DNA from: an uncultured Bacteroidales bacterium
GTDB taxonomy: Bacteria > Bacteroidota > Bacteroidia > Bacteroidales > P3
Reading direction: 5' to 3'
DNA: 53,660 nucleotides
Assembly (NCBI GenBank): GCA_905236645.1
Contig: CAJOMZ010000002.1
Coordinates: 1-53,660 of the forward strand
Part shown: in pieces, positions 8,560-50,483 of the stretch
Position numbering within the stretch: the stretch's first letter is position 1
How the letters are laid out: each line of letters begins with the position of its first letter
The notes under the pieces: generated by a model
What the model saw: only the letters and a program-made list of their open reading frames with translations
What the model was told of the DNA's origin: nothing
The model's database searches: none
Translations under genes and position numbers: made by a program

Positions 8560-8700
8560 CTCAAAAAAGGCCCAAAAACGACATTTTACAACCTGCTGAT
8601 TTCCAGGTACCAAATTCTTACCAAAGTTTACTCAAAGTTTTACCAAATTCTTATCAAATTTTACGTCGGTAGAATATGATAGAAGTTTGTTAATAACTTA
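8560..8700 (+). repeat. Dispersed intergenic repeat, copy 1
   Basis: Shares with copies at about 22.9-23.1 and 45.6-45.7 kb a GGCCCAAAAA-like opening, the exact core TGATTTCCAGGTACCAAATT (8597-8616), a run of TACCAAAGTTT-like 10-11-mers, and a GTAGAAT...GATAG closing part. All three copies have the same orientation and lie upstream of a plus-strand gene, here cutC. Copy 1 is the most diverged at its right end. Confidence 0.75.
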
Positions 8701-8874: not shown

Positions 8875-9573
8875 ATGCACGTAGAAATCTGTTGTAATTC
8901 CATTCTTTCGGCGCGCAATGCCAAGGCCGGTGGAGCGTATAGGATTGAGTTGTGCCAGGCTTTGGGCGAAGGCGGGACGACGCCGTCGGCGGCGGCTATA
9001 GAATACTGTGTCAAGGAGTTACATCTGCAGACACGGGTTCTTGTCCGTCCACGCGGCGGCAATTTCGTTTACGATAACGACGAGATGCGCGTGATTCTGC
9101 GCGACATCGAGCTGGCCAAACGCCTTGGAGCCGACGCCGTGGTTGTAGGCTTTCTGACGGCGCAGGGCGACATTGACATCGGCAAAACACGACAAGCCAT
9201 TGAAGCCGCCGACGGCATAGGCATTACGTTCCACCGCGCCTTCGACGAATGCCGCAATCCAGAGGAGGCATTGGAGCAGATTATAGACTGCGGATGCAGT
9301 AAACTGCTGACATCGGGTTGCAAAGCGACAGCCTGGGAGGGGCGCGAGATGCTTAAAAAACTGCTGTCGCAGGCCGACAGACGGATAGGTATTATAGGCG
9401 CAGCAGGCATAACCACTGACAGTGTGCATCGACTTGTTTGGGAAACAGGCCTTTGCGAGGTCCACGCCTCGCTGAAGCACACCGTAGACGGGCTCACTTG
9501 TACGGACGTAGACCAAGTGCGTGATTTTATGAATATTACCGACGATTTTCCAAATTATCCACCATTTAACTAA
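8875..9573 (+). CDS. cutC: CutC family protein (copper homeostasis TIM barrel)
   Basis: 232 aa, usual length. Recognised from VEICCNSILSARNAKAGGAYRIELC, the GGTTPS loop, VLVRPRGGNFVY, GADAVVVGFLT, ITFHRAFDE and LLTSGCKATAWEG, all hallmarks of CutC. The family is a TIM barrel once linked to copper tolerance in E. coli; that role is disputed and its reaction is not established. Probably cytoplasmic. It has its own -7 element upstream and is followed after 15 bp by a transglutaminase-like lipoprotein gene, so the two may share a transcript. Confidence 0.93.
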   Translation: MHVEICCNSILSARNAKAGGAYRIELCQALGEGGTTPSAAAIEYCVKELHLQTRVLVRPRGGNFVYDNDEMRVILRDIELAKRLGADAVVVGFLTAQGDIDIGKTRQAIEAADGIGITFHRAFDECRNPEEALEQIIDCGCSKLLTSGCKATAWEGREMLKKLLSQADRRIGIIGAAGITTDSVHRLVWETGLCEVHASLKHTVDGLTCTDVDQVRDFMNITDDFPNYPPFN

Positions 9574-9588
9574 AGACTAACCATCAAT

Positions 9589-12297
9589 ATGAAAAGGGTT
9601 TATGCATTATTGTTGACCTCGCTGGCGCTGTTGCTTTCGGCAACGTCGTGCCACAAGGAGAAGCATTTTATCACTGACAAAGAGTACCGTGCGCAGGTAC
9701 ACGCCGACTTCCTTGCACGCCAGGAACTTGCCGCTGGCCGCGCCAACGCACTGTTTGCAGGTATGGACACGCTGGACGCAGAGACGCGTGAGGCATTGGA
9801 ATTCCTGTATGCCTATATGCCTTACAGCGACTTGGCCGACTACGACCAAACGTTTTACTTGCAGCAGGTTAGAGCTGCCTTTGCCACACGCGAGCGCTTC
9901 AGTTGGGGCAAACAGGTGCCGGAAGATATTTTCCGCCATTTCGTATTGGTCTATCGCGTGAACAACGAGAATCTTGACACTGCAAGACTACTGATGCAGA
10001 GAGAGTTGGCACCAAGAGTGGAGGGCCTGAGTATGTACGAGGCGGCACTGGAGGTCAACCACTGGTGCCACGAGTATGTTGCCTATCGCGCCAGCGATAG
10101 CCGCACGTCTGCTCCATTGGCCACAATGCGCACATCCTTAGGCCGTTGCGGTGAGGAGTCGACCTTTGCCGTCACCGCCTTGCGCAGCGTGGGAATCCCT
10201 GCACGCCAATGCTATACGCCCCGCTGGGCGCACTGCGACGACAACCACGCGTGGGTGGAGGTGTTTATTGCCGACAGCAACCGCTGGTTCTTCCTCGGTG
10301 CCTGCGAACCCGACCCAGAGCTGGATATGGGCTGGTTTGCAGTGCCTTCCACACGCTGTATGATGGTGCATAGCAAGGCCTTCGGACGCTACAAAGGCGA
10401 CGAGGAGGTGGTGAAGCAGACAGCACTCTATAGCGAGCTGAACCTGCTGAGCCATTATGCTCCGACGAAAAAGGTTACCGTCACCGTTTTCGATGCCAAC
10501 AACAAGCCCGTCAAGGATGCCGATGTGAAGTTCAAACTATACAACTACAGCGAATTCTATCCGTTGGCGACCATCAAGACGAACAAGGATGGAAAGGCCT
10601 CGCTGACCACCGGTTTGGGCGACCTGCAGATATGGGCCACCGACGGGACACATTACAACTACGTCAAACTGGACGTGCGAGAACAGGCTGAAACCGAGAT
10701 ATATCTGACACGGGAAGGAGACGCAGAGTACACCGAGAAGATTGACATAGTGCCGCCTGTGGCTGGCGAAGCGAAGGTGACACCCGGCAAAGAGAAGGCC
10801 GACCGCAACGCAAAACGCTTGGTCTGTGAGGATTCCATCCGCGGTGCCTACACCGCCACCTTCCCGACAAAGGAGAACTTCAAGAAACTGCTTAAACCTA
10901 ACGATAACTTGACCGACAAGCAAGCTTGGGAGCTGATTCACAAGGCCGAAGGCAACTACAATGAGATTGCTGATTTCATCAACAACCACGCCGGTGAGGA
11001 TTTGAGAGAGACCACGTTTTTTACCTGCCTCTGTGAGTTACATCAAAGCGGCTATGATACTTGCTATTTTCTGTACGACTACCTCACGACATTCAGCGAC
11101 AAGGATATGCGCGACATAACAGCCGAAACGCTCGAGGCGCACTGGCAAAATCCAACGGTGCCTTGCATTATGGAGACTTACGAGGAATTTTATGTCAAAG
11201 GCATTATGCCCGCCCGCATCAGCAACGAGATGGTGCGTCCGTGGAGGCAGTTCCTGGCAGAGAAACTTACTGACATCAAGGATGCCAACAGCCTGATAGT
11301 ATGGACTAAAGAGAACATTGCCATCGACGATACCGGCAACTATTACAACTGTCCCATATCGCCTCGCGGCGTCTATGAATTGCGTCACAGCGACCGCCAC
11401 AGCCGTGACATCTTCTTCGTAGCCGCCTGCCGCTCGCTGAACATTCCGGCCTATCTCGACAACGCCACAAACACCATCTACGTGTGCGACGGCGACGCTG
11501 AAAAGCTTTGGAAGAAAGGCAAATGGGTGAAAGTGTCGTTTGAAGACGACACCGAGGAGCAGCCCACTGCCAAGCTGACGCTAACCTACAAACCCACCAA
11601 AGAGTTGGCCAAGCCTGTCTACTGGCCCCACTTCACGCTTGCCAAGTATAAGGACGGCGACTTTGTCACTTTCGACTTTGAGGACGACAGCCGTATGGAC
11701 AAGTTTCCTGCAACAATTGCCTTGGAACCAGGATATTATTGCCTTATGACCGGCAATCGCTATCCTGAGGGAGACGTTCTGGCCAAAGCCGAATACTTCA
11801 CAGTCAAGGATGGGCAGAAGGTGACTAAACAAATCATTCTAAGGCCTTTGGTTGAACGAACGGCCAACGTATTGGCCACCCTCGACCCAAAGCAAGAGAT
11901 AATCCCTGATATGGCAACGCTTGCTGACTATGCGGGCGAGACTGGTATGCTTTTCGTATTCGTGGGCGACTACAAGGAGCCCTCGAAGCATCTGATCAAG
12001 GAGATACAGTCGCTCGACAAGGAATACACGGCTTGGGGCGGTATGACCTACCTTGTTGCACCGGCATCGGCCAAACCCACCGCGTGGAAACTGCCTAACA
12101 CCGACTATATCATCAGAGAGCCCAACGACAAAGACCCATTCGAGAAACAGATTGTTGAAGCACTGAAACTGGATCTGAAAGGTGACTATCCGCTTGTAGC
12201 ACTGGTCAACAAAAAGGGCGAAATCTTGTTCCATAGCCACGGATATTCCATCGGACTGGCCGGACAAATATTGAAAAAGTTGCACGCAAAGAGCTGA
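9589..12297 (+). CDS. Large transglutaminase-like lipoprotein with a second degenerate core
   Basis: 902 aa. A lipoprotein signal (hydrophobic run ending LLSATSC, lipid Cys at 21) places it on the envelope. Residues about 145-250 hold a transglutaminase core: GRCGEESTFAVTALRSVGIPAR with the nucleophile C187, DDNHAWVEVF with H220, and the following acidic region GACEPDPELDMGWF. A middle region contains beta-sandwich-like sequence (TVTVFDANNKPVKDADVKFK). Around residues 598-625 a second, similar segment DRHSRDIFFVAACRSLNIPA appears, in which the Cys position is not Cys, so this copy should be inactive. The C-terminus (TGMLFVFVGDYKEPSKHLIKE onwards) looks thioredoxin-fold-like but has no CxxC. 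Likely hydrolyses or cross-links peptides or glycopeptides at the envelope; substrate unknown. Confidence 0.85.
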   Translation: MKRVYALLLTSLALLLSATSCHKEKHFITDKEYRAQVHADFLARQELAAGRANALFAGMDTLDAETREALEFLYAYMPYSDLADYDQTFYLQQVRAAFATRERFSWGKQVPEDIFRHFVLVYRVNNENLDTARLLMQRELAPRVEGLSMYEAALEVNHWCHEYVAYRASDSRTSAPLATMRTSLGRCGEESTFAVTALRSVGIPARQCYTPRWAHCDDNHAWVEVFIADSNRWFFLGACEPDPELDMGWFAVPSTRCMMVHSKAFGRYKGDEEVVKQTALYSELNLLSHYAPTKKVTVTVFDANNKPVKDADVKFKLYNYSEFYPLATIKTNKDGKASLTTGLGDLQIWATDGTHYNYVKLDVREQAETEIYLTREGDAEYTEKIDIVPPVAGEAKVTPGKEKADRNAKRLVCEDSIRGAYTATFPTKENFKKLLKPNDNLTDKQAWELIHKAEGNYNEIADFINNHAGEDLRETTFFTCLCELHQSGYDTCYFLYDYLTTFSDKDMRDITAETLEAHWQNPTVPCIMETYEEFYVKGIMPARISNEMVRPWRQFLAEKLTDIKDANSLIVWTKENIAIDDTGNYYNCPISPRGVYELRHSDRHSRDIFFVAACRSLNIPAYLDNATNTIYVCDGDAEKLWKKGKWVKVSFEDDTEEQPTAKLTLTYKPTKELAKPVYWPHFTLAKYKDGDFVTFDFEDDSRMDKFPATIALEPGYYCLMTGNRYPEGDVLAKAEYFTVKDGQKVTKQIILRPLVERTANVLATLDPKQEIIPDMATLADYAGETGMLFVFVGDYKEPSKHLIKEIQSLDKEYTAWGGMTYLVAPASAKPTAWKLPNTDYIIREPNDKDPFEKQIVEALKLDLKGDYPLVALVNKKGEILFHSHGYSIGLAGQILKKLHAKS

Positions 12298-16034: not shown

Positions 16035-16050
16035 TGTTTCACGTGAAACA
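16035..16050. other. parS site 1 (ParB-binding centromere)
   Basis: TGTTTCACGTGAAACA, an exact perfect palindrome identical to the Bacillus-type parS consensus that is conserved across bacterial phyla, including Bacteroidota. It lies in the intergenic space between convergent WbqC and mnmG genes. ParB spreading from such sites organises the origin region for segregation and SMC loading. Confidence 0.92.
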
Positions 16051-16142: not shown

Positions 16143-18029
16143 TCATCGGCAGTTCATCATTATCAGCAATACCGACACGTCGGCAGGCGAGACACCGCTA
16201 ATGCGCGAAGCCTGACCAATGGTTTGAGGCCGCATCTTTGAAAGCTTTTCCCTCGCCTCAAACGACAAGGCAGAGATAGAATGATAATCTACCCCTTCTT
16301 TCAACGGCAGGTTTTCGTATTTCAATATCTTATCTGCCACCTCTTTTTCCTTTTCGATATAGCGGCTGTATTTGGTCAAAATCTCTGCCGACTCGCACAC
16401 TTCTCGACGTATAGTTTCTGGAATATCGGCCAGCATTTCGCCCAACGAGGGCGACAAGGCAATCAGGTCTTGCATCGTGATTTCAGGACGCAGCAGCAGG
16501 TTGGAAAGCTTGACTTTCTGCGACAACGGGGCGGAATTATGCTGTTCCAAATAACTATTCGAGTCGTTCGGCAGGATTGGAGTCTGCTCAATTGTCTCTG
16601 ACAATCGTGCCGTATAACGCATCTTTTCATTGACCCTGTCAAGGCGCTCTTGCGAAGCCAAACCTACAGCGTGCGACAGCGGCGTGAGCCTTATATCGGC
16701 GTCATCCTGACGTAAAAGTATGCGGTATTCAGCACGCGACGTGAACATACGGTAGGGTTCATCGACACCCTTTGTCACCAAATCGTCTATGAGGACACCT
16801 ATATAAGCCTGCGACCGGCCAAGCACGAAAGCCTGTTTGCCTCGCAGTTTCAGTACTGCATTTATACCAGCCATCAGGCCCTGGCAAGCGGCCTCCTCAT
16901 AGCCCGTTGTGCCATTAATCTGTCCGGCAAAATACAAGTTCTCTATGCGTTTTGTTTCAAGGGTATACTTCAATTGCGTTGGCGGAAAGTAATCATACTC
17001 AATAGCATAGCCAGGTTTAAAAATCTGAGCCTGCTCAAAACCCTCAATCGTGTGCAGCGCGTCCAACTGCACATCAAGAGGCAATGATGAGGAGAATCCG
17101 TTAAGGTAATAAGAGTTGGTATGTAGGCCTTCCGGCTCTACGAAAAGTTGGTGCCTGTCTTTGCCGGCAAAGCGTTCAATCTTGTCCTCTATAGAGGGGC
17201 AGTAGCGCGGTCCGCGTCCTTGAATAAGCCCTGTAAACAACGGAGATTTCTCGAATCCAGAACGGAGTATATCGTGTGTATGCAGATTTGTATAGGCCAA
17301 AAAACAGGGTTTTTGTTCCGTCAGAGGCTTTGTCTGGGGACTGAAAGAGAACTTTTGTGGATCTTCGTCTCCTGGCTGCTCTGCCAGAGCACTAAAGTCT
17401 ATTGTCCGCCCATCGATTCTGACTGGTGTGCCGGTCTTCAACTTTTCAACCTCGAAACCCGCCTCCTTCAATTTATCAGACAAGCCAAGAGCTGGCCTCT
17501 CCCCTATCCTACCACCACTCAAGACCGTTTCTCCTATGAATATTTGACCATTCAGGAACGTGCCGTTTGTCAGCACAACAGCCTTTGCAGGGATAGTAAT
17601 CTGCATCCGAGTTACGACACCAGACACCACTTCGCCATTGGTTATAATATCAACCACCTCGTCCTGCCATAGGGTAAGATTTGGTGTGTTCTCAAGCACA
17701 TAGCGCCAGTTTGATGAGAAAACCGCCTTGTCACACTGCGCACGAGGGCTCCACATCGCAGGGCCTTTAGAGCGGTTAAGCATACGGAATTGAATCATTG
17801 AATGGTCTGTAACAACGCCCGACCAGCCTCCAAGAGCATCAATTTCCCGGACAATCTGCCCTTTTGCCACACCACCCATTGCAGGATTGCACGACATCTG
17901 GCAGATTGTATCGAGGTTTTGGGTAATCAGCAGCGTCTTTGCACCGAGTCCTGCAGCGGCAGCAGCAGCCTCAGCACCAGCGTGTCCAGCACCAACCACA
18001 ACTACATCATATTCTTCGAACCGCATCAT
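16143..18029 (-). CDS. mnmG: tRNA uridine-5-carboxymethylaminomethyl(34) synthesis enzyme, large subunit
   Basis: 628 aa, full length. With MnmE it installs the carboxymethylaminomethyl group on wobble U34 of several tRNAs, using FAD and a folate carbon. Seen: FAD-binding [76 protein letters not shown] and the C-terminal [16 protein letters not shown]. The start has two tandem ATGs (18029, 18026). The gene is bracketed by two exact parS sites, in keeping with the frequent origin-proximal location of gidA/mnmG in bacteria. Upstream on the same strand are ybeY and an RsbW-like gene. Confidence 0.98.
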
Positions 18030-18062: not shown

Positions 18063-18078
18063 TGTTTCACGTGAAACA
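18063..18078. other. parS site 2
   Basis: Second exact TGTTTCACGTGAAACA, in the 52-bp gap between the mnmG start and the ybeY stop, 2028 bp from site 1. Confidence 0.92.
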
Positions 18079-22930: not shown

Positions 22931-23095
22931 AGTTTTGAAAGGGTCGGAAAAGGGCCAAAAATGCACTTTACCAACTCCCTGATTTCCAGGTACCAAATTC
23001 CTACCAAAGTTTACTCAAAGTTTTACCAAAGTTTAGTCAAAGTTCACTCGAGTAGAATTTGGTAGGAATTTATCAAAAAGTCGGGTAAAATTTAG
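22931..23095 (+). repeat. Dispersed intergenic repeat, copy 2
   Basis: Same elements as copies 1 and 3: GGGCCAAAAA opening, core TGATTTCCAGGTACCAAATT, tandem TACCAAAGTTT-like units, closing GTAGAATTTGGTAGGAATTT. The arms AAATTCCTACC (22995-23005) and GGTAGGAATTT (23061-23071) are perfect inverted repeats, so a single strand can fold. Located in the divergent gap between the DUF4175 gene and the SDR gene. The remainder of this 533-bp gap has no gene. Confidence 0.78.
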
Positions 23096-28356: not shown

Positions 28357-28412
28357 ATATATACTTTATTACTTCATTTTTATTATGTTTATATCAAATA
28401 ATTTTTTATTAA

Positions 28413-29534
28413 CTAAATCTCTTTCCCGAACACGGCGCGCATCATCAGCGGCTCGGTCTCGTAGGTGGTGCCCCAGATTTTTTCGGCTTCGTTGCCGATG
28501 ATCTGGGGGTTGGTATAGGCCCAAACGACGTTGTTTTTGATGGCGTTGCGGTTCATCTCGGCGTAGTAGATAGAGTGCACGCCGCGTTTCTGCCATTCGG
28601 GGTGCACGCCGTTGAGCAGCAGGTCGATAGTGTCGTACTTGTGCAGGGCGTGCAGCAAATGGTACCAGCCAAAGGGGAACAGGTGTCCGTTGGCCTTCTG
28701 ATAAGCCTCGGTAAGGCTGGGGATGCTGAGGCCGAAAGCCACCAGATTGTCGTCCTTGTCGACAACGAAGTTGCAGAAATCCAGATTGATGAAAGGGAAA
28801 TACTCCTTTACGTATACATCGATTTCCTTCTCCGTCATTGGCACAAAGTCATAAAGGTCCTTGAAGGCATCGTTCAGCGTGTGGAAGAACTTGCGGGCGT
28901 AGGGATAGACCTCTTTGCGCTTCTTGAAGCGCAGCAACTTGAGGTTGTAGCGCTCGAGGATAAGCTGGTTGATGCGAGCCACCTTGTCGGGTATCGGCTG
29001 GCTGGCCGGCATCTTGTACTGCTGCCAGCGGCAAAGAATCTTGCAGTCCAGACGTTCGATGAAGTCAATATAGTACTTCGGATTGTAGAGCGTGCTGAGG
29101 TTCTGGCGGGCATCGAAGCCTTCAATCACCCAGCATTCCTTGTCCATATCGGTGAAGCCGAAAGGACCCTCTATTTCTGTCATCCCTTTGCTACGGCCAT
29201 ATTCCACAACCTTGTCGAACAGGGCCTTGCAGACGTCGAAATCCTCAACGAAGTCGAACCATCCGAAACGCACAGCCTTCTTGTTCCAGTGCTGATTAAC
29301 TGTATGGTTGATGATTGCCGCCACGCGGCCCACAACCTTGCCGTCGACGGTGGCAAGATACATCTGCAGGTCGCAGTGTTCAAGCGAGGGGTTCCTGTCG
29401 GTCAGCAGTGCCCGCTCGTCGCGGTTCAGCGGCGGCACGTATGTAGGCACATCTTTAAAGAGTTTGTTTGGAAATTCAATGAATCTGTTAAGGTCGCGAC
29501 GACCGTTGACTTCACTAATAACAATGTTCTCCAT
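28413..29534 (-). CDS. GNAT-like N-acyltransferase family protein next to serine palmitoyltransferase
   Basis: 373 aa, cytoplasmic. The sequence opens VNGRRDLNRFIEFPNKLFKD and contains a first GNAT-like half (YLATVDGKVVGRVAAIINHT) and a second half with PEWQKRGVHSIYYAEMN, the acyl-CoA pyrophosphate-binding motif A. So it looks like a duplicated GNAT fold, the type often annotated only as hypothetical in Bacteroidota. Its neighbour upstream is serine palmitoyltransferase, as in other Bacteroidales; a role in sphingolipid acylation is an attractive inference but not shown by sequence. An attenuator-like hairpin touches its start codon. Confidence 0.8.
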   Translation of the reverse strand: MENIVISEVNGRRDLNRFIEFPNKLFKDVPTYVPPLNRDERALLTDRNPSLEHCDLQMYLATVDGKVVGRVAAIINHTVNQHWNKKAVRFGWFDFVEDFDVCKALFDKVVEYGRSKGMTEIEGPFGFTDMDKECWVIEGFDARQNLSTLYNPKYYIDFIERLDCKILCRWQQYKMPASQPIPDKVARINQLILERYNLKLLRFKKRKEVYPYARKFFHTLNDAFKDLYDFVPMTEKEIDVYVKEYFPFINLDFCNFVVDKDDNLVAFGLSIPSLTEAYQKANGHLFPFGWYHLLHALHKYDTIDLLLNGVHPEWQKRGVHSIYYAEMNRNAIKNNVVWAYTNPQIIGNEAEKIWGTTYETEPLMMRAVFGKEI

Positions 29535-29589
29535 AAAAAAAGCGAAAGGACTTTAAAGCCTCCTCAAAGACCCCAAAGTCCTTAAGGAC
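29535..29589 (-). terminator. Attenuator-like terminator abutting the GNAT start codon
   Basis: On the minus strand AAGGACTTT pairs with AAAGTCCTT (29575-29583 with 29546-29554), followed by TCGC and seven T, and the ATG of the GNAT gene comes immediately after. The palindrome GTCCTTAAGGAC (29578-29589) uses part of the same arm and could form instead. No promoter is visible between the two genes. Confidence 0.6.
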
Positions 29590-29611
29590 GCTGGTTGTTA
29601 AATTGTTTTTT

Positions 29612-30796
29612 TTACAACAATCCTAATTTCTTGAAGCACTTGACTGTCTTTTCTACCGCAAAATCCACCTGCTCTATAGTGTGCGTGGCCATCCAAGCAA
29701 GGCGAATGAGCGTGTCCTCGGGCGGCACGGCTGGCGATATGACCGGATTTACAAAGACACCTTCGTCGAGCAGCATCTTCGTAACCATAAAAGTCTTCTC
29801 GTTGTCGCGCACATAGAGAGGAATGATGGGTGTCTCAGTATTGCCAATCTCAAAGCCTGCCTCACGGAACGATTTGAGGGCGTAGTTGGCCACTTTCCAC
29901 AGGTTTTCCTGGCGTTCTGGCTCGCTGCGCATAATCTCGATGGCGGCTATTACCGATGCGGTCGCCGACGGCGGAATGCTGGCTGTGAAGATGTAGGGGC
30001 GCACATTGTGGCGCATCCAGTTGATGGTATCTTTGTCTGCTGCGATAAAGCCGCCGATGGAAGCGAGCGATTTTGAGAAGGTACCCATAACGAGCTCCGT
30101 CTTGTCGAGCAGATTGAAATGGTCGGTAACACCCCGTCCCTCGCGTCCGAAAACGCCCAAGCCGTGGGCCTCGTCGACCATAAGCGTAGCCTGGTATTTA
30201 TCGCACAGCACCTGCATTTCAGGCAGCTTTGCCACATCGCCCTCCATACTGAAAACACCATCAGTCACCACCAGCTTGGCGGCGTCCAAGGGGCAGCGCT
30301 GCAACACGCGCTCCAAGTCTGCCATATCGTTATGGCGATACTTCAGAGTATTGGCGAAAGTAAGGCGCTTGCCCTCAATGATAGAGGCGTGGTCCATCTC
30401 GTCGAAGATAACATAGTCGTTGCGGCCCGTAATGCAAGGGATAACACCCGAATTGGCCTGAAAGCCTGCCGAGAACAGCATAACGCCATCCTTGCCAAGG
30501 AAATCGGCCAGGATGCCTTCAAGTTTGTGATGTATGTCCAAAGTGCCATTAAGGAACGGCGAGCCGGCGCAGCCCGTACCGTACTTGTCGATAGCGGCCT
30601 TCGCAGCCTCTTTAATCTTCGGATGGTTAGTAAGACCCAAATAACTATTGGAACCAAGCATCAGGATGCGCTTTCCATTCATTGTCACCATAGTGTCCTG
30701 ATCGCTCGAAATCTCTCTAAAATAAGGATATACGCCCTTGGCTTTTACCTCTTGGGGCGCAGTATACTTGGAGAGTTTTTGTTGCAGTGGTTTCAT
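29612..30796 (-). CDS. spt: Serine palmitoyltransferase
   Basis: 394 aa, full length. PLP enzyme of the alpha-oxoamine synthase family that condenses serine with an acyl-CoA to 3-ketosphinganine, starting bacterial sphingolipid synthesis. Seen: MLGSNSYLGLTNHPKIKEA, GTGCAGSPFLNGTLDIHHKLE, DEMDHASIIEG, TDGVFSMEGDVAKLP, VDEAHGLGVFGREGRG and the PLP lysine in MGTFSKSLASIGGF. The GSPFLNGT and N-terminal details match the Bacteroides/Porphyromonas sphingolipid enzyme better than 2-amino-3-ketobutyrate ligase or BioF, though these relatives are the alternatives. On the minus strand, followed after 77 bp by the GNAT-like gene. Confidence 0.92.
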   Translation of the reverse strand: MKPLQQKLSKYTAPQEVKAKGVYPYFREISSDQDTMVTMNGKRILMLGSNSYLGLTNHPKIKEAAKAAIDKYGTGCAGSPFLNGTLDIHHKLEGILADFLGKDGVMLFSAGFQANSGVIPCITGRNDYVIFDEMDHASIIEGKRLTFANTLKYRHNDMADLERVLQRCPLDAAKLVVTDGVFSMEGDVAKLPEMQVLCDKYQATLMVDEAHGLGVFGREGRGVTDHFNLLDKTELVMGTFSKSLASIGGFIAADKDTINWMRHNVRPYIFTASIPPSATASVIAAIEIMRSEPERQENLWKVANYALKSFREAGFEIGNTETPIIPLYVRDNEKTFMVTKMLLDEGVFVNPVISPAVPPEDTLIRLAWMATHTIEQVDFAVEKTVKCFKKLGLL

Positions 30797-30862
30797 TAAA
30801 AGACTAATTATATAATAGTTTAAGAGTGCAAAATAACAAAAAAAAATCGGAAAAACACGTTG

Positions 30863-31711
30863 TTATTCCGATAAAAATTTGAAAAGATGCGACGTGAGCC
30901 GGCTTGCACCTATTCTAAAATTCTGGTTGTTAGTAGTTTTACCTTCAAATATTTTTTTGTGCAAAAGGTAAAAAACCAAGGCGTCAGAGGGGTTGGAAAT
31001 GCCTCCTGCAGCCTTAAAGCCGACAGCTTTTTTAGATATTTTTATATAATTTTGCACTGCCGTCAGCATAATATACGCCGCTTCAGGGGTGGCACCGACA
31101 GGAATCTTGCCTGTCGATGTCTTGACGAAATCGGCTCCTGCCTCAAGCACCAGCATTGATGCTTTATAAATATTTTCAGGCGATTGCAGCTCGCCCGTTT
31201 CAATGATGACCTTCAGCAAGGCATCGTTTCCGCACGCTTCCTTTGCGGCAGCGACCTCGTCAAAGACAGCCTGGGTGTCGCCCGTCAAGAAATAGCCCCT
31301 GTTTATCACAAAGTCAACCTCTTCGGCACCCTCTGCAACGGCACATCTTACTTCCTCTGTCTTAATGCGTTGCGGTGTCTGTCCAGCAGGAAAACCGCCT
31401 GCTACCGACGCAACCCTTATACCGCTACCCTCCAACTCCTTCTTGGCAACGCCTGCAAAGCAAGGATAGACGCACACCGAAGCCACGTGCCTCTCCTTGC
31501 CATCGGCAAGGCACATCCCGCGTGTTGCACGGCAGAATGCCTCGACCGAAAGTCGCGAATCAGCCCCGTTAAGCGTTGTGTTGTCTATGCACGTAAATAC
31601 TTCGCCGAGCAATTCTTTCCGCTCTGAATCAGACATTTCACCGACACCTGCCTCTATCTCGGCCATACATCCCCGAAAGGCACCGGGGTCATAAACATAA
31701 TCATTTACCAT
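30863..31711 (-). CDS. deoC: Deoxyribose-phosphate aldolase
   Basis: 282 aa. Cleaves 2-deoxyribose-5-phosphate into acetaldehyde and glyceraldehyde-3-phosphate in deoxynucleoside catabolism. Seen: CIDNTTLNGADS, VASVCVYPCF, VASVAGGFPAGQTP, EEVDFVINRGYF, the Schiff-base lysine in ADFVKTSTGK, and GFKAAGGISN with the second active-site lysine. Length fits the longer DeoC type of Bacteroidota. Its start overlaps the stop of the LutB-like gene by 11 bp, so both come from one minus-strand transcript with rpiB. Confidence 0.96.
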   Translation of the reverse strand: MVNDYVYDPGAFRGCMAEIEAGVGEMSDSERKELLGEVFTCIDNTTLNGADSRLSVEAFCRATRGMCLADGKERHVASVCVYPCFAGVAKKELEGSGIRVASVAGGFPAGQTPQRIKTEEVRCAVAEGAEEVDFVINRGYFLTGDTQAVFDEVAAAKEACGNDALLKVIIETGELQSPENIYKASMLVLEAGADFVKTSTGKIPVGATPEAAYIMLTAVQNYIKISKKAVGFKAAGGISNPSDALVFYLLHKKIFEGKTTNNQNFRIGASRLTSHLFKFLSE

Positions 31712-32858
31712 TCTCTAATGTTTTCTTGTACGACTTGGCAAAAGCCTCCTTGCTGAACGCCGGAATACGGTGCGATTTACGGTAGTCGGACGAAATGAAC
31801 TTGCACATCAGATGCTTCTTGATGAACGGCGACGAATTCAGTTTTGCACGGCTTTTCAGCATTTTACGCATAGCGCCCAACTGCCGCCTTTCCTCCTTGT
31901 CCAGCCCGCCCTCGGCGATAAGCAGATGGCGCGATTCCACTATCATCTCGCGTATCGGCAGCGATAAAGGACACACCTCCTCGCAGCGTCCACACAGGGT
32001 GCAGGCATACATAACGTGCCTGTAGCTCTCCATAGTCTCGAGATAGGGCAGCGTCACGTTTGCCATAGGTCCTGCAAAGACATTGTTGTAAGGCTCCTCG
32101 CTAATGGTTTGGAAAACAGGACAGACATCATTGCACCGGCCACAGTGCAGACACATCATCGACTGGCGTATCTCCTTGTTCGTCAACAGCTGCGAACGCT
32201 GATTGTCAATAATAAAGAGGTAGTTGTTACAATTGTCCGACCCCTTGAAAATAATCATATCCTGCCTGCCGCAACCCGAGTTGTACGAGACCAACTGCCG
32301 ATACATATCCGCCCAGTCGCCGCTGCACAAAACTCTGTCTATAGTAGTGAAGAAGACGTTGGTTTTGCAGTTCGTAAGGCGTTCAAGGCTGTTGTTTGTC
32401 TGGTTCATCAGAAGTATGGCCCCGGTGTCCGACAGCAGCCTGTCGGCATTGAAGAACTGCATATCGCCGTCCTCCGCCAGGGCAATCTTCTCGTCACGCA
32501 GGAAATACTTGATTCCCAACTCGCGGAAAATCGTGGAATTGTTGATATTGGGCAGGCGCACAGACTTGACCTTGTGCACCTTGAACAATTTCTTCAAACT
32601 CTCGAAAACATCATTGTAGTCGGTTGCCCAAAACACCGCGTTGTGCTTGTTGGCAAAATGGTTCTCGAAGCGCGTCAGCTCCTCGTCAAGGTTCTCCACC
32701 GTATGCCTCAACGCCGCCTTGAACCGCGGAATGGCAGAGCCGCTGATGTCGAAATCCGTTTCATTATCAGCGTTCAGAGCAAAACGTCGTGCACCGGCAT
32801 TCGCCTCGATAGCCTTCTCTGACAAATCCAAGAAGTTGTTATAGAAATCGTCGTTCAT
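31701..32858 (-). CDS. LutB-like protein: LUD domain plus two 4Fe-4S clusters
   Basis: 385 aa. The N-terminal half reads like the LUD fold of lactate-utilisation proteins (EELTRFENHFANKHNAVFWATD, GAILLMNQTNNSLERL). The C-terminal half has two ferredoxin-type cysteine sets, CLHCGRCNDVCPV and CTLCGRCEEVCPL, and a basic tail. LutB normally works with LutA and LutC in lactate oxidation; neither partner is adjacent here, where the neighbours are deoC and rpiB. So the electron-transfer partner and substrate are open. It lies 1 bp after rpiB. Confidence 0.85.
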   Translation of the reverse strand: MNDDFYNNFLDLSEKAIEANAGARRFALNADNETDFDISGSAIPRFKAALRHTVENLDEELTRFENHFANKHNAVFWATDYNDVFESLKKLFKVHKVKSVRLPNINNSTIFRELGIKYFLRDEKIALAEDGDMQFFNADRLLSDTGAILLMNQTNNSLERLTNCKTNVFFTTIDRVLCSGDWADMYRQLVSYNSGCGRQDMIIFKGSDNCNNYLFIIDNQRSQLLTNKEIRQSMMCLHCGRCNDVCPVFQTISEEPYNNVFAGPMANVTLPYLETMESYRHVMYACTLCGRCEEVCPLSLPIREMIVESRHLLIAEGGLDKEERRQLGAMRKMLKSRAKLNSSPFIKKHLMCKFISSDYRKSHRIPAFSKEAFAKSYKKTLENGK

Positions 32859-32859
32859 C

Positions 32860-33303
32860 TTAAACCAACAACTTATTGATTTTCTCTACGCGGCGCTGGT
32901 GACGTCCACCTTCGAAGGGTGTTGAAAGGAAAATATCGACAATCTTCAACGCCAGATCCTCCGGAATGAATCTTGCAGGCAAAGAGACGATGTTGGCATC
33001 GTTGTGCTGCCGGCCAAGCTGCGCAATCTCCTCGTTCCAGCACAGCGCGCAGCGTACATTCGGGTATTTGTTGACAGTCATCTGCACCCCGTTGCCCGAG
33101 CCGCAGATAACGATGCCCCTCTTGTAGTCGCCACGGTTGACGGCGCTGCCCACCTTGTGCGCAAAGTCAGGATAGTCTACACTATCGTTCGAGAATGTAC
33201 CAAAGTCCTTGGCCTCAATGTTTTTCGAGGCCAGAAACTCCTTGACCTTCTCCTTCAGCTCAAAGCCCGCGTGGTCGCAAGCTATAGGTATAATTTCATT
33301 CAT
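32860..33303 (-). CDS. rpiB: Ribose-5-phosphate isomerase B
   Basis: 147 aa from ATG 33303 (MNEIIPIACDHAGFELK); an in-frame ATG three codons upstream (33312) is also possible. Interconverts ribose-5-P and ribulose-5-P. Seen: CDHAGFELKEKVKEFL, DYPDFAHKVGSAV, GIVICGSGNGVQMTVNK (G-S-G-N-G in place of the common G-T-G-I-G, usual in Bacteroidota), and RCALCWNEEIAQLGRQHNDANI. First gene of the minus-strand run rpiB - LutB-like - deoC, with its own promoter on the edge of the gene-free gap. Confidence 0.96.
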   Translation of the reverse strand: MNEIIPIACDHAGFELKEKVKEFLASKNIEAKDFGTFSNDSVDYPDFAHKVGSAVNRGDYKRGIVICGSGNGVQMTVNKYPNVRCALCWNEEIAQLGRQHNDANIVSLPARFIPEDLALKIVDIFLSTPFEGGRHQRRVEKINKLLV

Positions 33304-33333
33304 ACAGTTCATTTTACACTTTGATAACTTTTG

Positions 33334-33363
33334 CAAAATTACGATAAAAAAGCGACTTGCAAA
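33334..33363 (-). promoter_or_regulatory. rpiB promoter
   Basis: On the minus strand TTTG (33360-33363), an 18-nt spacer and TAATTTTG (33334-33341), about 30 bp before the ATG. Confidence 0.7.
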
Positions 33364-33387
33364 ACATTGATGCCACAAAAGATTCAA

Positions 33388-34241
33388 TAATTATCACCAA
33401 TCCTACTTATCTGCCTAAACATTAACTTCTTATAGTTTTATAAACAATGCATTGTTTAATACCTGGTGAAAAGCCCTGAATTACAATGTTGATAAACAAC
33501 GATGCCCGGCTGATGTTGATTAGTGTTAAGAAAACATCCATTTTTCAAAAGAAATAATCACAGAAACAAACATAAAACGAAATGAACAAACAGCTGTTCA
33601 CAGCTGAATAAACAGGCTGTTCATTAAATCATAAGTCAATGAATAGTCAAACATTATCCGGTGAAAAGCACAAAAAAAACAGTGGATAAAATCACCGCAA
33701 AACACAGGCGAAAACGAGATACTAACAAATTAACACCCTAAAAAAACAAAAGAAAAAAAATTTTATATCCTTTTAATTATTTTAGCTTCGCTTCGAAGCC
33801 AAACAATAGTCGATAATCACAAACCAGTCAACTTTACCCAATCCGATGCCTAAAAAATGACACCCTGAATCAGCCATTCAAACACCGCCTCATTTCCAGT
33901 ACATTAAGGTACCAACTCCGTCCGTTGTACAATATATGTACAATACTTGTACAATATTTGTACGTTTACCAATTGTACATATATTGTACAAGTAATATAT
34001 TGTACAACGGACGGAGTTGGTACGGTCCAAATACGGTTTTTGGACGAGGAAAAAAGGCCAGACGTGGCGACGGAATAGCGGCAGGCTGTCAACAGGGTTT
34101 TGCGTCGGCAGGCATCGGAAATGGCGGCCACAACGCCGGATGTCGCATAAATGGTTTTCCGGCATCATTGACGAGGACAACGGATAAGAATGTAAAAAGT
34201 GGATAAAAGAGTGTTTAAAGAGAGTATTAAAAATATTTTCG
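33388..34241. other. Candidate chromosomal replication origin (oriC)
   Basis: Almost 1 kb with no gene, AT-rich, between divergent gene runs (minus to the left, plus to the right). It holds DnaA-box-like 9-mers: TTATCAACA (33487-33495, minus), TTATCCACT (33681-33689 and 34198-34206, both minus) and TTATAAACA (33438-33446, plus). There is also a very AT-rich tract near 33720-33790, a TGAACA/TGTTCA palindrome cluster at 33581-33625, and the GTAC-repeat inverted element. Three parS sites are within 18 kb. None of this proves initiation; it is an inference from converging signs. Confidence 0.5.
33909..34023. repeat. Iteron-like GTAC array inside perfect 29-bp inverted arms
   Basis: Arms 33909-33937 and 33995-34023 are perfect reverse complements (begin GTACCAACTCCGTCCG). 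Between and within them seven GTAC-centred units of the type TTGTACAATAT occur, starting at 33927, 33938, 33949, 33960, 33975, 33986 and 34002, that is at 11-bp steps apart from two of 15-16. Each unit is itself near-palindromic. A phased protein-binding array or a cruciform-prone element; not a CRISPR. Confidence 0.85.
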
Positions 34242-34249
34242 TATCTTTG
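34242..34249 (+). promoter_or_regulatory. -7 element of the nadA promoter
   Basis: TATCTTTG followed by C, about 72 bp before the nadA ATG. A standard -33 is not seen. Confidence 0.5.
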
Positions 34250-34321
34250 CAGTTGCATAAATAGTGGGCTGAAACGTTATTTGGCTCATTATGAGATTGT
34301 ATTGTTTAAAATTGAAAAGTT

Positions 34322-35269
34322 ATGACAAACGAAGAGCTTAAAAATGAGATAATCCGTCTGAAGAAAGAGAAGAATGCCGTAATATTGGGCCATTACTATC
34401 AGATTGACGAAATCCAGGCCTTGTCGGACTATGTAGGCGACAGCCTTGCATTGGCGCAGGAGGCGCAGCGCACCGACGCACCGATCATCGTATTCTGCGG
34501 AGTTCATTTTATGGCTGAGACTGCCAAGATACTCAACCCCACCCGCAAGGTGCTGCTGCCCGATGTCGAGGCGAGCTGCTCGTTGGCCGAATCGTGCACT
34601 GGCGAGGATTTGCGTCGCTTCAAGGCCGAGCATCCGGGGCATATTGTCGTTTCGTATGTCAATTGTTCGGCCGAGGTGAAGGCCGAGTCGGACCTGATTT
34701 GCACCTCGGGCAACGCCGAGAAGCTGATTAACGCTTTGCCGGCCGACCAGAAGATTATATTTGCCCCTGACAAGAATCTTGGCGGTTATATCAATCGTCA
34801 GACCGGCAGGGAAATGGTGCTTTGGAACGGAGTGTGCACCGTCCACGACGCTTTGGAGGCGGAGAGTATACTGAAACTGAAGCAGCAGAACCCCGACGCT
34901 CCGGTCATTGCCCATCCCGAGTGCAACAGCGCAGTGCTGGCCGTATCGGAGTTTATCGGGTCGACAAAGGCAATGCTCAACTATGTTGCCAAGTCGGAAG
35001 GCAAACGTTTCATCGTCGCTACCGAATCGGGTATCCTTTACGAGATGCGGAAGAACAATCCCGACAAGGAGTTTATAGCCGTGCCGAGCGGGGAGAGTTG
35101 CGCCTGCACAGACTGCTCGTATATGAAACTCAACACATTGGAGAAGTTGTACAGATGCTTGCGCGACGAGCAGCCTGAGATTCAGCTCGACGCCGAAATG
35201 ATAGAGCGTGCCCGCCGACCGATAGTGCGTATGCTTGATATGTCGCGCGAACTGGGTATCATTAAATAG
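34322..35269 (+). CDS. nadA: Quinolinate synthase
   Basis: 315 aa. Condenses iminoaspartate with dihydroxyacetone phosphate to quinolinate in NAD synthesis, using one [4Fe-4S] cluster. Seen: AVILGHYYQIDEIQALSDYVGDSL, VFCGVHFMAETAKIL, VVSYVNCSAEVKAESD, DKNLGGYINRQTG, HPECNSAVLAVS, and the C-terminal SCACTDCSYMKLNTL with cluster cysteines. First gene of the plus-strand run beside the candidate origin. nadB and nadC are not in the window, but nadK, which uses the NAD product, is. Confidence 0.97.
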   Translation: MTNEELKNEIIRLKKEKNAVILGHYYQIDEIQALSDYVGDSLALAQEAQRTDAPIIVFCGVHFMAETAKILNPTRKVLLPDVEASCSLAESCTGEDLRRFKAEHPGHIVVSYVNCSAEVKAESDLICTSGNAEKLINALPADQKIIFAPDKNLGGYINRQTGREMVLWNGVCTVHDALEAESILKLKQQNPDAPVIAHPECNSAVLAVSEFIGSTKAMLNYVAKSEGKRFIVATESGILYEMRKNNPDKEFIAVPSGESCACTDCSYMKLNTLEKLYRCLRDEQPEIQLDAEMIERARRPIVRMLDMSRELGIIK

Positions 35270-35892: not shown

Positions 35893-35908
35893 TGTTTCAC
35901 GTGTAACA
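35893..35908. other. parS-like site 3 (one mismatch)
   Basis: TGTTTCACGTGTAACA, one base from the perfect site (GTGTAACA for GTGAAACA), just before the RluA-family gene. A DnaA-box-like TTATCAACA (35821-35829, minus) is 64 bp away. Confidence 0.75.
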
Positions 35909-45578: not shown

Positions 45579-45735
45579 GAAAGGGCCAAAAAAGGGCCAA
45601 AAACGGCCTTTTCCAAGTCTATGATTTCCAGGTACCAAATTCCTACCAAAGTTTACCCAAAGTTTTATAAAACTTTTACCAAAGTTTACTCCGGTAGAGT
45701 TTGATAGGAATTTATCAAAAAGTCGGATAGGATTT
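45579..45735 (+). repeat. Dispersed intergenic repeat, copy 3
   Basis: GGGCCAAAAAAGGGCCAAAA opening, core TGATTTCCAGGTACCAAATT (45622-45641), TACCAAAGTTT-like units and a closing GTAGAGTTTGATAGGAATTT with TATCAAAAAGTCGGAT, nearly identical to copy 2 at the end. Confidence 0.78.
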
Positions 45736-48074: not shown

Positions 48075-48099
48075 TTCAAAATTTATAGTTCACTATCAA

Positions 48100-48187
48100 T
48101 TAACCCCGGGGGTGCCCGACTTGGCGCAAGCCGATGGCTGAGAACAGACCCCTTGAACCTGAACAGGATAATACCTGCGGAGGAAAA
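48100..48187 (+). promoter_or_regulatory. TPP (THI-element) riboswitch
   Basis: Contains the conserved blocks GGGGGTGCCC, GGCTGAGAACAGACC, CCTTGAACCTGAACAGGATA and ATACCTGCGGAGG in the right order, ending 5 bp before the receptor ATG. TPP binding should shut down the operon, probably at translation because P1 closes next to the start codon. It controls receptor, PnuT and pyrophosphokinase together. Confidence 0.95.
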
Positions 48188-48191
48188 ATTT

Positions 48192-50483
48192 ATGAAAAAA
48201 AACAACAGTAAGACGGCTGCCCGCCGCGGGATGCGGTGTGCAGCGGTGTGGAGCAAGGCGCTCTGCACAACTATGCTCCTTGGAGCAACGACAGGCAACA
48301 TTTTTGCACAGACCCCTGAAAGGCCTTCAAACCCCGACGACAGTGCACGGCACGTCAAGGTTGTAAACCTTGAGAAGATTGTTATGTTGAGTTCGAGGGC
48401 GGACGACAAGACGCCATTAACCACCACGACGCTTAGCCGCCAGAAGCTGGACGAGGCCAAGATAGCAGTGTCGGTGCCGTATATGCTTGAGCTTGAACCA
48501 TCGGTGGTTGTGAGTGGCGAAAACGGCGCAACAGGAGAGACGAAGATAAGTGTTCGCGGCGTCAACTCCAGCCGTATCAACGTGAACATTAACGGCATCA
48601 CGCTCAACGACCCTGAGAGCCAGGAGGTGTTCTGGTACAATATCCCCAATCTTGGCGGTATGGCCCAGAGCCTCCAGATTCAGCGTGGCGTCGGTGCCTC
48701 GACAGGAGGCTCGCCGTCGTTCGGTGCGGCAATGAATCTTCAGACTTTCAATGCCTCGTCAAGCCCCTACGCCAACCTTGATTTGAGTTATGGCTCGTGG
48801 AACACCATTCAGCAGGGTATCACGGCCGGGACAGGCCTTATGAAGAACAACCTGTCGTTTGATATGGCTTTCAACAATACTTCGTCGGACGGTTTCATCC
48901 GCGGCAGCGGCGCCGACCAGCAGTCGCTCTTCCTCAGCGGCGGCTACTATGGCGAGCGCTCGATTTTGAAAGCTGTCTTCATTATGGGCCACCAGAAGAC
49001 GGGAATCACCTGGAATGGAGCCTACGACTTCCGGCTTGACGCTGACAGGCTCTACAATCCTGCCGGCGAATATATCGACGATGCCGGCAATACTCGTTAC
49101 TACGACAACGAGACCGACTACTACAACCAACGCCATTATCAGTTATACTATTCTTATTTGGCCAGCAAATATTTGACATTCAACGCCGCTTTCGACTTTA
49201 CCCACGGCGATGGCTACTACGAGAACTACCGATATAACAAGAAAGTGAAACAGTATGGGTTGACTTTGCTGAACGGCAACAGCAAGGACGATTTCATTCA
49301 TCGTAAGGAGGTGTACAACTCAACCTATACCGGAAACTTCTGGGCTCGTTATTGCAACAGTGGCACCACTTTTGATTTCGGTGAGACTTTCGTTCTGTAT
49401 TCAGGCGACCATTTCGGCAATCTTATATGGTCGAAGGACAGTGTTGCACTTGACGGCGATTATTTAGCGGTGAATCGTGTGTCGCCCTACGAATGGTATC
49501 GCAATCAAGGTGTCAAGACAGACAACACTTTTTATGCCAAGATGAGGAAGGAATTTTCGCAGCAGTGGAACCTTTATGCCGAGGCACAGTTGCGCAGCGT
49601 GGACTATTCATTGTATGGTACCGAGGCCGACCGCGAGGATATAGACTTCCACGAACAGTACCTGTTCTTCAATCCTAAAGTTGGTGTTAATTTCACACCC
49701 GACAGCAAGAACCGCCTGTACTTTGTGGCTGGCGTAGTCAGTCGCGAGCCCACACGCTCGGACATAAAAGAGACTTACCTTGAAGGCGACACCATCAAGG
49801 CTGAGACTATGGCTGATTTTGAGTTGGGATACCGCATTGAGGATGAGAGTTTCACCTTTGGCGCAAACCTGTATGCTATGCTGTACCAAGACCAAATGAC
49901 CCCCTCGGGCAACTATTCCCCCTCAGGTTACGCGCTGATGGAAAATGTGGACAAGAGTTATCGTCTGGGCATTGAACTTGTGGGAGGCTATCGCTTTACA
50001 CGCTGGTTCTCGATGGATGCCAACCTGACACTCAGCACCAACCGCATTATCGACTACAGCTGTATGATTACCACCGACGACTGGAGTGCAAAACAACTGG
50101 TCGATTTCGGCAATACCAACCTCTCGCTCTCGCCATCAGTGATTGGTGCCGCCATAGCGACTTTCCGTCCGTTCAAGAACACCAAACTGCAGGTGATCGG
50201 CAAATATGTGGGAGAGCAGTATGCCGACAACAGTTCGCGCGAGGAGATGAAAGTCGACCCGTATTTCCTGCTCAATGTACGTTGCAGCCACACCTTTGAC
50301 TTCAATAACGGCAACCAATTGGAATGCCAGCTGGCTATAAACAATGTGCTTGACCACGACTACCGCCTTAGCGCTTATGCGTCAAGCACTATCGATCCTG
50401 CCACGGGTGCTTTCACCTACGACCGTACCTGGTTCCAGCAACCGGGAATTAACTTAATGGGCCGCATAGTCTACCGATTCTAA
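48192..50483 (+). CDS. TonB-dependent receptor for thiamine
   Basis: 763 aa from ATG 48192; the longer frame before it runs through the riboswitch and is not coding. Signal peptide near SKALCTTMLLGATTGNIFAQ, then a plug with EIVMLSSR-like TonB-box region (VNLEKIVMLSSR), VPYMLELEPSVVVSGENGATG, ISVRGVNSSRINVNINGI and IQRGVGASTGGSPSFGAAMN, followed by a 22-strand barrel ending in an aromatic residue (GRIVYRF). Outer membrane. The TPP riboswitch and the downstream genes make thiamine or its derivatives the likely cargo, as known for this operon type in Bacteroides. Confidence 0.93.
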   Translation: MKKNNSKTAARRGMRCAAVWSKALCTTMLLGATTGNIFAQTPERPSNPDDSARHVKVVNLEKIVMLSSRADDKTPLTTTTLSRQKLDEAKIAVSVPYMLELEPSVVVSGENGATGETKISVRGVNSSRINVNINGITLNDPESQEVFWYNIPNLGGMAQSLQIQRGVGASTGGSPSFGAAMNLQTFNASSSPYANLDLSYGSWNTIQQGITAGTGLMKNNLSFDMAFNNTSSDGFIRGSGADQQSLFLSGGYYGERSILKAVFIMGHQKTGITWNGAYDFRLDADRLYNPAGEYIDDAGNTRYYDNETDYYNQRHYQLYYSYLASKYLTFNAAFDFTHGDGYYENYRYNKKVKQYGLTLLNGNSKDDFIHRKEVYNSTYTGNFWARYCNSGTTFDFGETFVLYSGDHFGNLIWSKDSVALDGDYLAVNRVSPYEWYRNQGVKTDNTFYAKMRKEFSQQWNLYAEAQLRSVDYSLYGTEADREDIDFHEQYLFFNPKVGVNFTPDSKNRLYFVAGVVSREPTRSDIKETYLEGDTIKAETMADFELGYRIEDESFTFGANLYAMLYQDQMTPSGNYSPSGYALMENVDKSYRLGIELVGGYRFTRWFSMDANLTLSTNRIIDYSCMITTDDWSAKQLVDFGNTNLSLSPSVIGAAIATFRPFKNTKLQVIGKYVGEQYADNSSREEMKVDPYFLLNVRCSHTFDFNNGNQLECQLAINNVLDHDYRLSAYASSTIDPATGAFTYDRTWFQQPGINLMGRIVYRF

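Follow-up and report, generated by a model that had tools for sequence, protein, structure and literature searches.

To our knowledge, replication origins of the Bacteroidota have been little studied by experiment. The passages available from one report describe the predicted oriC of Prevotella intermedia OMA14 as multiple DnaA boxes at the GC-skew transition with dnaA far off, and an oriC far from dnaA as common in Bacteroidetes, so the origin considered here is of a kind already known (PMC4755523). The window (the whole stretch of DNA analysed, 53,660 bases) was the start of contig C2 in a draft genome that comprised 172 contigs and 2.375 Mb. An original prediction had placed a candidate chromosomal origin between the genes rpiB and nadA in this window, and the present analysis bore it out, though with corrections. 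The rpiB/nadA gap very probably contains the chromosomal oriC, because relatives of the window shared a conserved module, an enriched 9-mer, the placement of parS sites and, in most long stretches, a switch in GC skew. As the prediction had also supposed, dnaA was not beside the gap; in the draft genome it was located on contig C36, and a ParB gene on contig C59.

The rpiB/nadA gap and its flanking genes

Gene assignments in the window were based on protein family searches of selected ORFs, and gave the following genes around the gap.

32860-33303, minus strand: rpiB, ribose-5-phosphate isomerase B, left neighbour (TIGR01120 above cut-off)
34322-35269, plus strand: nadA, quinolinate synthase, right neighbour (NF006878 and TIGR00550 above cut-off)
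16143-18029, minus strand: mnmG/gidA (PF01134), a gene often origin-proximal in bacteria

The nearest named matches of NadA (74-77% identity) came from uncultured Bacteroidales or Bacteroidetes, one title including yak rumen. The divergent rpiB and nadA were separated by a gap of 1018 bp with a GC content of 35.6%. The predicted strand switch was found at the gap, the long ORFs being on the minus strand at 24.5-33.3 kb and on the plus strand at 34.3-51.7 kb, with opposite-strand ORFs overlapping them. The gap contained five promoter-like sites (4.3 expected) and two terminator-like sites (0.6 expected), and an Rfam search of it gave zero matches at gathering score. Elsewhere in the window, a TPP riboswitch scored above its gathering score at 48098-48202, and a serine palmitoyltransferase of the CFB type (NF047600 above cut-off) was encoded at 29612-30796, near the putative origin.

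Comparative analysis of 34 genus loci (4 named and 30 from the genus search, window included) showed a divergent rpiB/nadA gap of 429-1431 bp in 25, again with the window; L013 and L111 were identical, leaving 24 distinct divergent gaps. The genus gap set excluded L015 (3.1-kb gap) and eight loci with rpiB out of reach or cut by contig ends. The outside-genus set of 15 gaps comprised 14 genomes of eight genera (g2-g9) and the named locus L023, and G089 was dropped (no rpiB in its 20 kb). For other families, 187 of the 200 genomes searched across the order gave a NadA match, and the same divergent gap was present in 16 of the best-scoring 26 non-family loci, from eight families; four of the ten loci without the gap were cut by contig ends. 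Several draft contigs (G020 C96, G024 C44, G030 C94, G050 C25, G019 C126 and L014) started at most 0.6 kb before nadA, which means that assembly broke off at or close to the putative origin gap; L014 and G030 possibly represent a single genome.

A conserved module with box-like 9-mers and an A-rich end

A profile was trained on 22 gaps, with the window and its two nearest relatives (G072 and L094) left out, and was run on the fetched stretches. It found the module in the window at 33321-33766 with an E-value of 8.4e-28, the next match having an E-value of 0.14. In blastn against the close relative G072 (NadA 98%), the shared piece was 28410-33806 (85.6% identity), and the match resumed at 34081. 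The gap alignment had 25 rows (L100 left out, G072 added) and contained a conserved block that began about 70 bp from the rpiB start and ended at about 480 bp with a AAATTAACA-type motif and an A-rich stretch. By these alignments, the core of the putative origin is confined to the half of the gap nearer rpiB (about 33321-33806) and does not take in all of 33388-34321, the extent first proposed; the remainder, with the palindrome, was not conserved. The features of this part of the gap were as follows.

About 33321-33806, no strand: putative oriC core, made up of the conserved module, DnaA-box-like 9-mers and the A-rich end (profile, blastn and gap alignment)
33438-33446, plus strand: DnaA-box-like TTATAAACA at gap position 135, at the same position in G072 and L094
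33487-33495, minus strand: DnaA-box-like TTATCAACA at gap position 184, the top 9-mer of the gaps
33514-33522, minus strand: DnaA-box-like TAATCAACA at gap position 211, recurring in relatives
33681-33689, minus strand: box-like TTATCCACT in the core, aligned with TTATCCACA in L101 and not conserved in G072
33727-33785, plus strand: AAATTAACA motif followed by an A-rich stretch, predicted as a probable DNA-unwinding element (motif orientation and AT content)
34198-34206, minus strand: second TTATCCACT, beyond the module and without conservation in G072 or L094

Seven genus loci had no rpiB within reach, and five of them were fetched more widely. The module was found between rpiB and nadA in four of the five, with the genes 2.4-4.4 kb apart: G014 (E-value 2.1e-10), G041 (3.6e-20), G056 (1.2e-51) and G052 (6e-19). 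In the fifth, G004, neither module nor boxes were found near nadA, rpiB was absent from the fetched 20 kb, and parS was at least 37 kb from nadA.

A conserved gap of this sort could also be a mere divergent promoter region of rpiB and nadA, AT-rich as such, in which the 9-mers would be regulator sites. Its conserved ends were promoter-like (TGCAAAnnTAC near rpiB and TATCTTTGC near nadA), and in G014 and G056 the module stayed next to or near rpiB although nadA was 2 kb away. However, the module lay at a distance from either gene in G041 (rpiB 2.9 kb off, nadA 1.2 kb off) and in G052 (0.6 and 1.3 kb), and the placement of parS and GC skew would have no reason to track a promoter region, so that this explanation was considered very improbable beside an origin.

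In the gaps of other genera, the profile gave clear matches in g2 (1.6e-15) and g8 (3.1e-6 and 2e-10), a weak match in g4 (2.5e-4, in one genome of the two), and no clear match in g3, g5, g6, g7 and g9 (best 0.0064, in G099); chance-level matches elsewhere reached 7.7e-4. G074 had a weaker second match (6.7e-8) away from its gap. Conservation of the module extends through the genus and to some other members of the family.

The 9-mers of the gaps were counted and compared with the counts expected from dinucleotide shuffles. In 29 genus gaps, TTATCAACA was the most over-represented 9-mer (32 against 0.55 expected, in 21 gaps), TTTTCAACA occurred 39 times (1.75 expected, in 21 gaps) and TTATCCACA once; with the duplicate removed, the 28 gaps gave 31, 36 and 1. 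TTATCAACA also led in the 15 outside-genus gaps (25 against 0.22), which contained TTTTCAACA 21 times (0.75 expected) and TTATCCACA not at all. The 16 other-family gaps were led by TTATTAACA (28 against 1.3), and contained TTATAAACA 12 times (1.2 expected), TTATCAACA 9 times (0.3) and TTATCCACA 3 times (0.2). On these enrichment counts, TTATCCACA was rejected as the box of the family for TTWTCAACA, which also took the place of TTATCCAC(A/T), the box first proposed.

Boxes recurred at gap positions 79-80, 135, 184, 211-212 and 239-241, each in part of 15 gaps. Position 184 was occupied by TTATCAACA in L094, L016 and L120 and by TTTTCAACA in L013, and was without a box in G072; position 211-212 was occupied by TAATCAACA in G072, by TTTTCAACA in L013, L016 and L120, and by TTATCAACT in L107. 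The 9-mers named in the original prediction (TTATAAACA, TTATCAACA and two copies of TTATCCACT) were all present, the second TTATCCACT lacking conservation in the nearest relative. The signal was weaker in the window's own clade of 11 genomes, with TTATCAACA 5 times (0.15 expected), TTTTCAACA 8 times (1.0) and TTATAAACA 8 times (1.0), none of them the top 9-mer, and the window's own gap had only one exact TTWTCAACA. Over the whole window, 17 sites were within one mismatch of TTATCCACA (10.8 expected; 17 was reached in 5 of 100 shuffles), hardly above chance, so the boxes of the window alone would not carry the case for an origin. The box cluster of a bacterial oriC was thus found in the gap sets and was weak in the window alone. 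In Duncaniella (L019), four TTWTCMACA lay in the 500 bp at 9500-10000, directly upstream of nadA, with rpiB outside the locus; the local skew minimum was at the locus end, and an origin may adjoin nadA there too.

Comparison of the window genome's own DnaA with domain IV of E. coli DnaA (1J1V; E. coli numbering, counted from the 1J1V chain) showed that residues 399, 433, 434, 438 and 439 were kept and that A, K and A stood at 423, 432 and 435. Passages of PMC5043019 name 399, 423, 432-435 and 438-439 as base-contacting residues. They also report that position 432 can be lysine, and 435 at times serine, threonine or alanine, in Epsilon- and Deltaproteobacteria, and that Epsilonproteobacterial boxes have C at position 6. 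The same residues therefore occur where boxes keep C, and the A at box position 6 cannot be put down to the residue changes by themselves; they were not established as its cause, and a link between them and the box shift would be an inference from sequence comparison.

For the A-rich end, 17 of the 29 genus gaps had the motif AA[AC]T[TG]AACA in nadA-sense orientation and 1 had it in antisense, against 2.8 expected from shuffles. In that spelling it occurred once in the 15 outside-genus gaps (1.5 expected), which is no enrichment. The AT content was 0.77 at 33741-33800, a value matched within the gap only inside the palindrome (33941-34000). Judged from motif orientation and AT content, 33727-33785 is probably a DNA-unwinding element; in the genus, and by sequence only, an AT-rich element of this type lay beside the boxes. 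The longest DnaA-trio run, ([CT]T[AT])n, averaged 4.39 in 44 gaps and 3.61 in shuffled gaps (highest of 30 shuffles 3.86), for a motif that is degenerate and was unplaced relative to a box.

parS sites and GC skew around the gap

Sequence matches to parS in the window were located on both sides of the gap, as originally predicted, although the right-hand one was inexact.

16036-16049, plus strand: exact parS next to mnmG
18064-18077, plus strand: exact parS between mnmG and ybeY
35894-35907, plus strand: parS-like site with one mismatch, +1572 from the nadA start

These made three matches with at most two mismatches in the window, against 0.16 expected, and the draft genome had one more exact parS, on contig C9. 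Exact parS was present in 48 of 59 genus genomes (72 sites in total) and absent from 11; 45 of the 48 also had a nadA match. In these 45, parS clustered around the putative origin: a site was on the nadA contig in 41, within 20 kb of nadA in 40, and less than 4 kb downstream, at +1.0 to +3.5 kb from the nadA start, in 36 (G035 was counted via its second nadA copy, on the parS-bearing contig). Most positions were near +1.5 or +2.1 kb, and a second group, which included the window's genome, was at -11 to -18 kb. Exact parS was absent from 14 of 20 other-family genomes. In the six that had it, parS was 21, 22, 32 and 65 kb from nadA in four (measured irrespective of rpiB adjacency) and on another contig in one; the place of nadA was unlisted in the other.

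In the window, cumulative GC skew reached its minimum within the gap, 352 bp upstream of the start of nadA. Nine long stretches (99-362 kb) were then compared, the minimum being sought within 50 kb on either side. All nine were more G-rich in the right 50 kb than in the left. The minimum was inside the gap in five (G072, G074, G085, G087 and G094) and outside it in four, at about 0.55 kb in G082, about 8.5 kb in G068, 46 kb in G103 and 23 kb in G106; the minimum of the whole G072 contig was at the contig end. On draft contigs, the skew minimum expected of an origin was thus found in the gap in the window and in five of the nine long stretches. Among the split points of one and the same stretch, the skew step at nadA was top or near the top in G087, G103, G085, G106, G094 and G072. 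Its rank was 0-1 of 39-40 in each of the five stretches of 100 kb, 6 of 564 in G072 and 3 of 34 in the window; the step was unremarkable in G074 (45 of 363), G082 (66 of 418) and G068 (156 of 354). In 13 shorter loci (12-20 kb), the minimum was between rpiB and nadA in 3, just outside in 1 and elsewhere in 9; skew rose across the gap in 9 and did not in 4. One 5.26-Mb contig of another family, sampled sparsely at 18 places of 2 kb, had the expected sign (-0.025 and +0.043) with four of nine samples wrong on each side, and this whole-chromosome estimate was discarded as too noisy.

E. coli has DnaA-titration and reactivation loci, datA and DARS. The boxes of the gap might likewise form such a locus near the origin, with initiation elsewhere within some kilobases: box clusters alone do not define an origin, and four of the nine skew minima missed the gap. 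Against this, the minimum fell in the gap in the window and the other five, the box cluster of the genus adjoined an oriented motif and an A-rich stretch, and the gap was the densest 600 bp for TTWTCAACA in G074 (261 kb) and G082 (289 kb), though not in G072 and G068. A titration or reactivation locus was considered very unlikely.

If the gap is the origin, DnaA, encoded elsewhere, would bind an array of 9-mers of the kind TTATCAACA, TTTTCAACA and TTATAAACA and would melt the adjacent A-rich stretch after the AAATTAACA motif, at about 33727-33785. Replication would initiate in 33321-33806 and proceed outward both ways, and ParB on parS near mnmG and about 1.5 kb beyond nadA would segregate the new origins. 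Such an origin could be recognised from two gene names across genera and several families, and with its explicit box consensus it is directly testable; with the origin position fixed, metagenome coverage could be used to estimate growth rates.

The 11-bp palindrome and comparison with known systems

The half of the gap on the nadA side contained the phased repeat array that the original prediction had counted among the origin features.

33905-34028, no strand: dispersed palindrome of 11-bp units (TTGTACAATAT) (tips, fold and genome copies)

The 11-bp units were real, and the palindrome had perfect tips of 29 nt and a DNA fold with z = -14.3. It was crossed by two ORFs of 122 and 93 aa, and the 122-aa ORF was without a Pfam match. 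A permissive Rfam search gave 26 matches (25 microRNA precursors and 1 plant snoRNA), all below gathering scores, which were read as what any long hairpin would give. The palindrome was present at no fewer than 40 places in the draft, including 33905-34028 (scoring covered 40 of the 128 candidates). In the genome, a 17-mer from its tip had 98 matches at up to two mismatches, with 1 for the reversed control. It was found in 2 of 59 genus genomes, own included, and also in G072. Among 27 aligned copies, the number of 11-bp units varied, and in one copy the tips were the same but enclosed a different unit. G072 had a palindrome of other 11-bp units at the corresponding place, and L094 had an 11-bp array of a third kind. 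One copy was about 0.6 kb upstream of dnaA (L153, G000 C36).

Arrays of the same period were also found in intergenic DNA of the window at 8607-8664, 22991-23051 and 45645-45688, and in G072 C2 (L155-L173) and other genus loci, many of them dyads. With a threshold of at least 23 of 30 matches at lag 11, there were 62 arrays in 1.22 Mb of genus DNA, or 61 in 1.20 Mb without duplicate loci, of which 41 were on two contigs (G072 C2 and G074 C3). The eight other genera yielded none in 0.96 Mb, and 1.14 Mb of other loci yielded 1. In the genus, the remaining periods between 7 and 20 gave 0-21 arrays. On contig C2 of G072, 23 of 25 arrays (looser threshold) were outside ORFs of at least 100 aa, at about 1 per 14.5 kb, and occupied tandem, divergent and convergent gaps about in proportion to gap length.

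An 11-bp-period array occurred in 11 of the 29 genus gaps, all or nearly all with different units. This would favour the array at 33905-34028 as the working part of the origin, for example a phased binding array. The other 18 gaps had none, the position within the gap varied, and such arrays were common in intergenic DNA. The array was rejected as an origin element because it is a dispersed element, given its 98 genomic tip matches and its presence in 2 of 59 genomes, and such a role was held to be extremely unlikely. The palindrome is an interspersed element, and the half of the gap that it fills lacks conservation. Arrays of 11-bp period stand apart from the origin as an unexplained trait of the genus, on which nothing pertinent was found in the literature; the 11-bp step is about one turn of an A-form duplex and close to one B-form turn, which is only a hint.

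Two bolder readings, taken together, are rather doubtful: that many Bacteroidales families inherited one rpiB-oriC-nadA origin whose DnaA box had shifted to TTATNAACA, and that the genus has a repeat class defined by its 11-bp period. Under them, TTATNAACA may be read by a DnaA in which base-reading residues have changed (to A at 423, K at 432 and A at 435), and the array unit may change by locus and species, with three units beside the core in three close relatives. If the repeat class were true, some process would measure 11 bp and build or rewrite arrays.

In the literature covered, with DoriC outside its scope, nothing pertinent was found on the rpiB/nadA gene pair with an origin, nor was the rpiB/nadA location or the TTWTCAACA consensus found in print for this group of bacteria in the sources as available; a search for TTATCAACA with 'DnaA box' gave a cyanobacterial match in the part of the text shown.

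Like MITEs and interspersed palindromes, the 33905-34028 element is short, had no recognisable protein found in it, and has perfect terminal inverted repeats and many dispersed copies. Unlike MITEs, it consists of 11-bp units throughout in variable number, and the same period recurs with other units at other loci. PINSR of Prevotella intermedia, as described in passages of PMC4755523, is without terminal inverted repeats and differs from the palindrome in this.

The predicted oriC of P. intermedia OMA14, in the same passages (PMC4755523), resembles the gap in its multiple boxes, skew transition and distant dnaA; it differs in having been predicted with E. coli boxes, one mismatch allowed, and its flanking genes are unnamed there. 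With the oriC of E. coli and B. subtilis, the gap shares a cluster of DnaA-box-related 9-mers, an A-rich stretch, a skew switch, parS on both sides and mnmG nearby. It differs from them in not lying beside dnaA, in the box TTWTCAACA, with A at position 6, instead of TTATCCACA, and in being flanked by rpiB and nadA.
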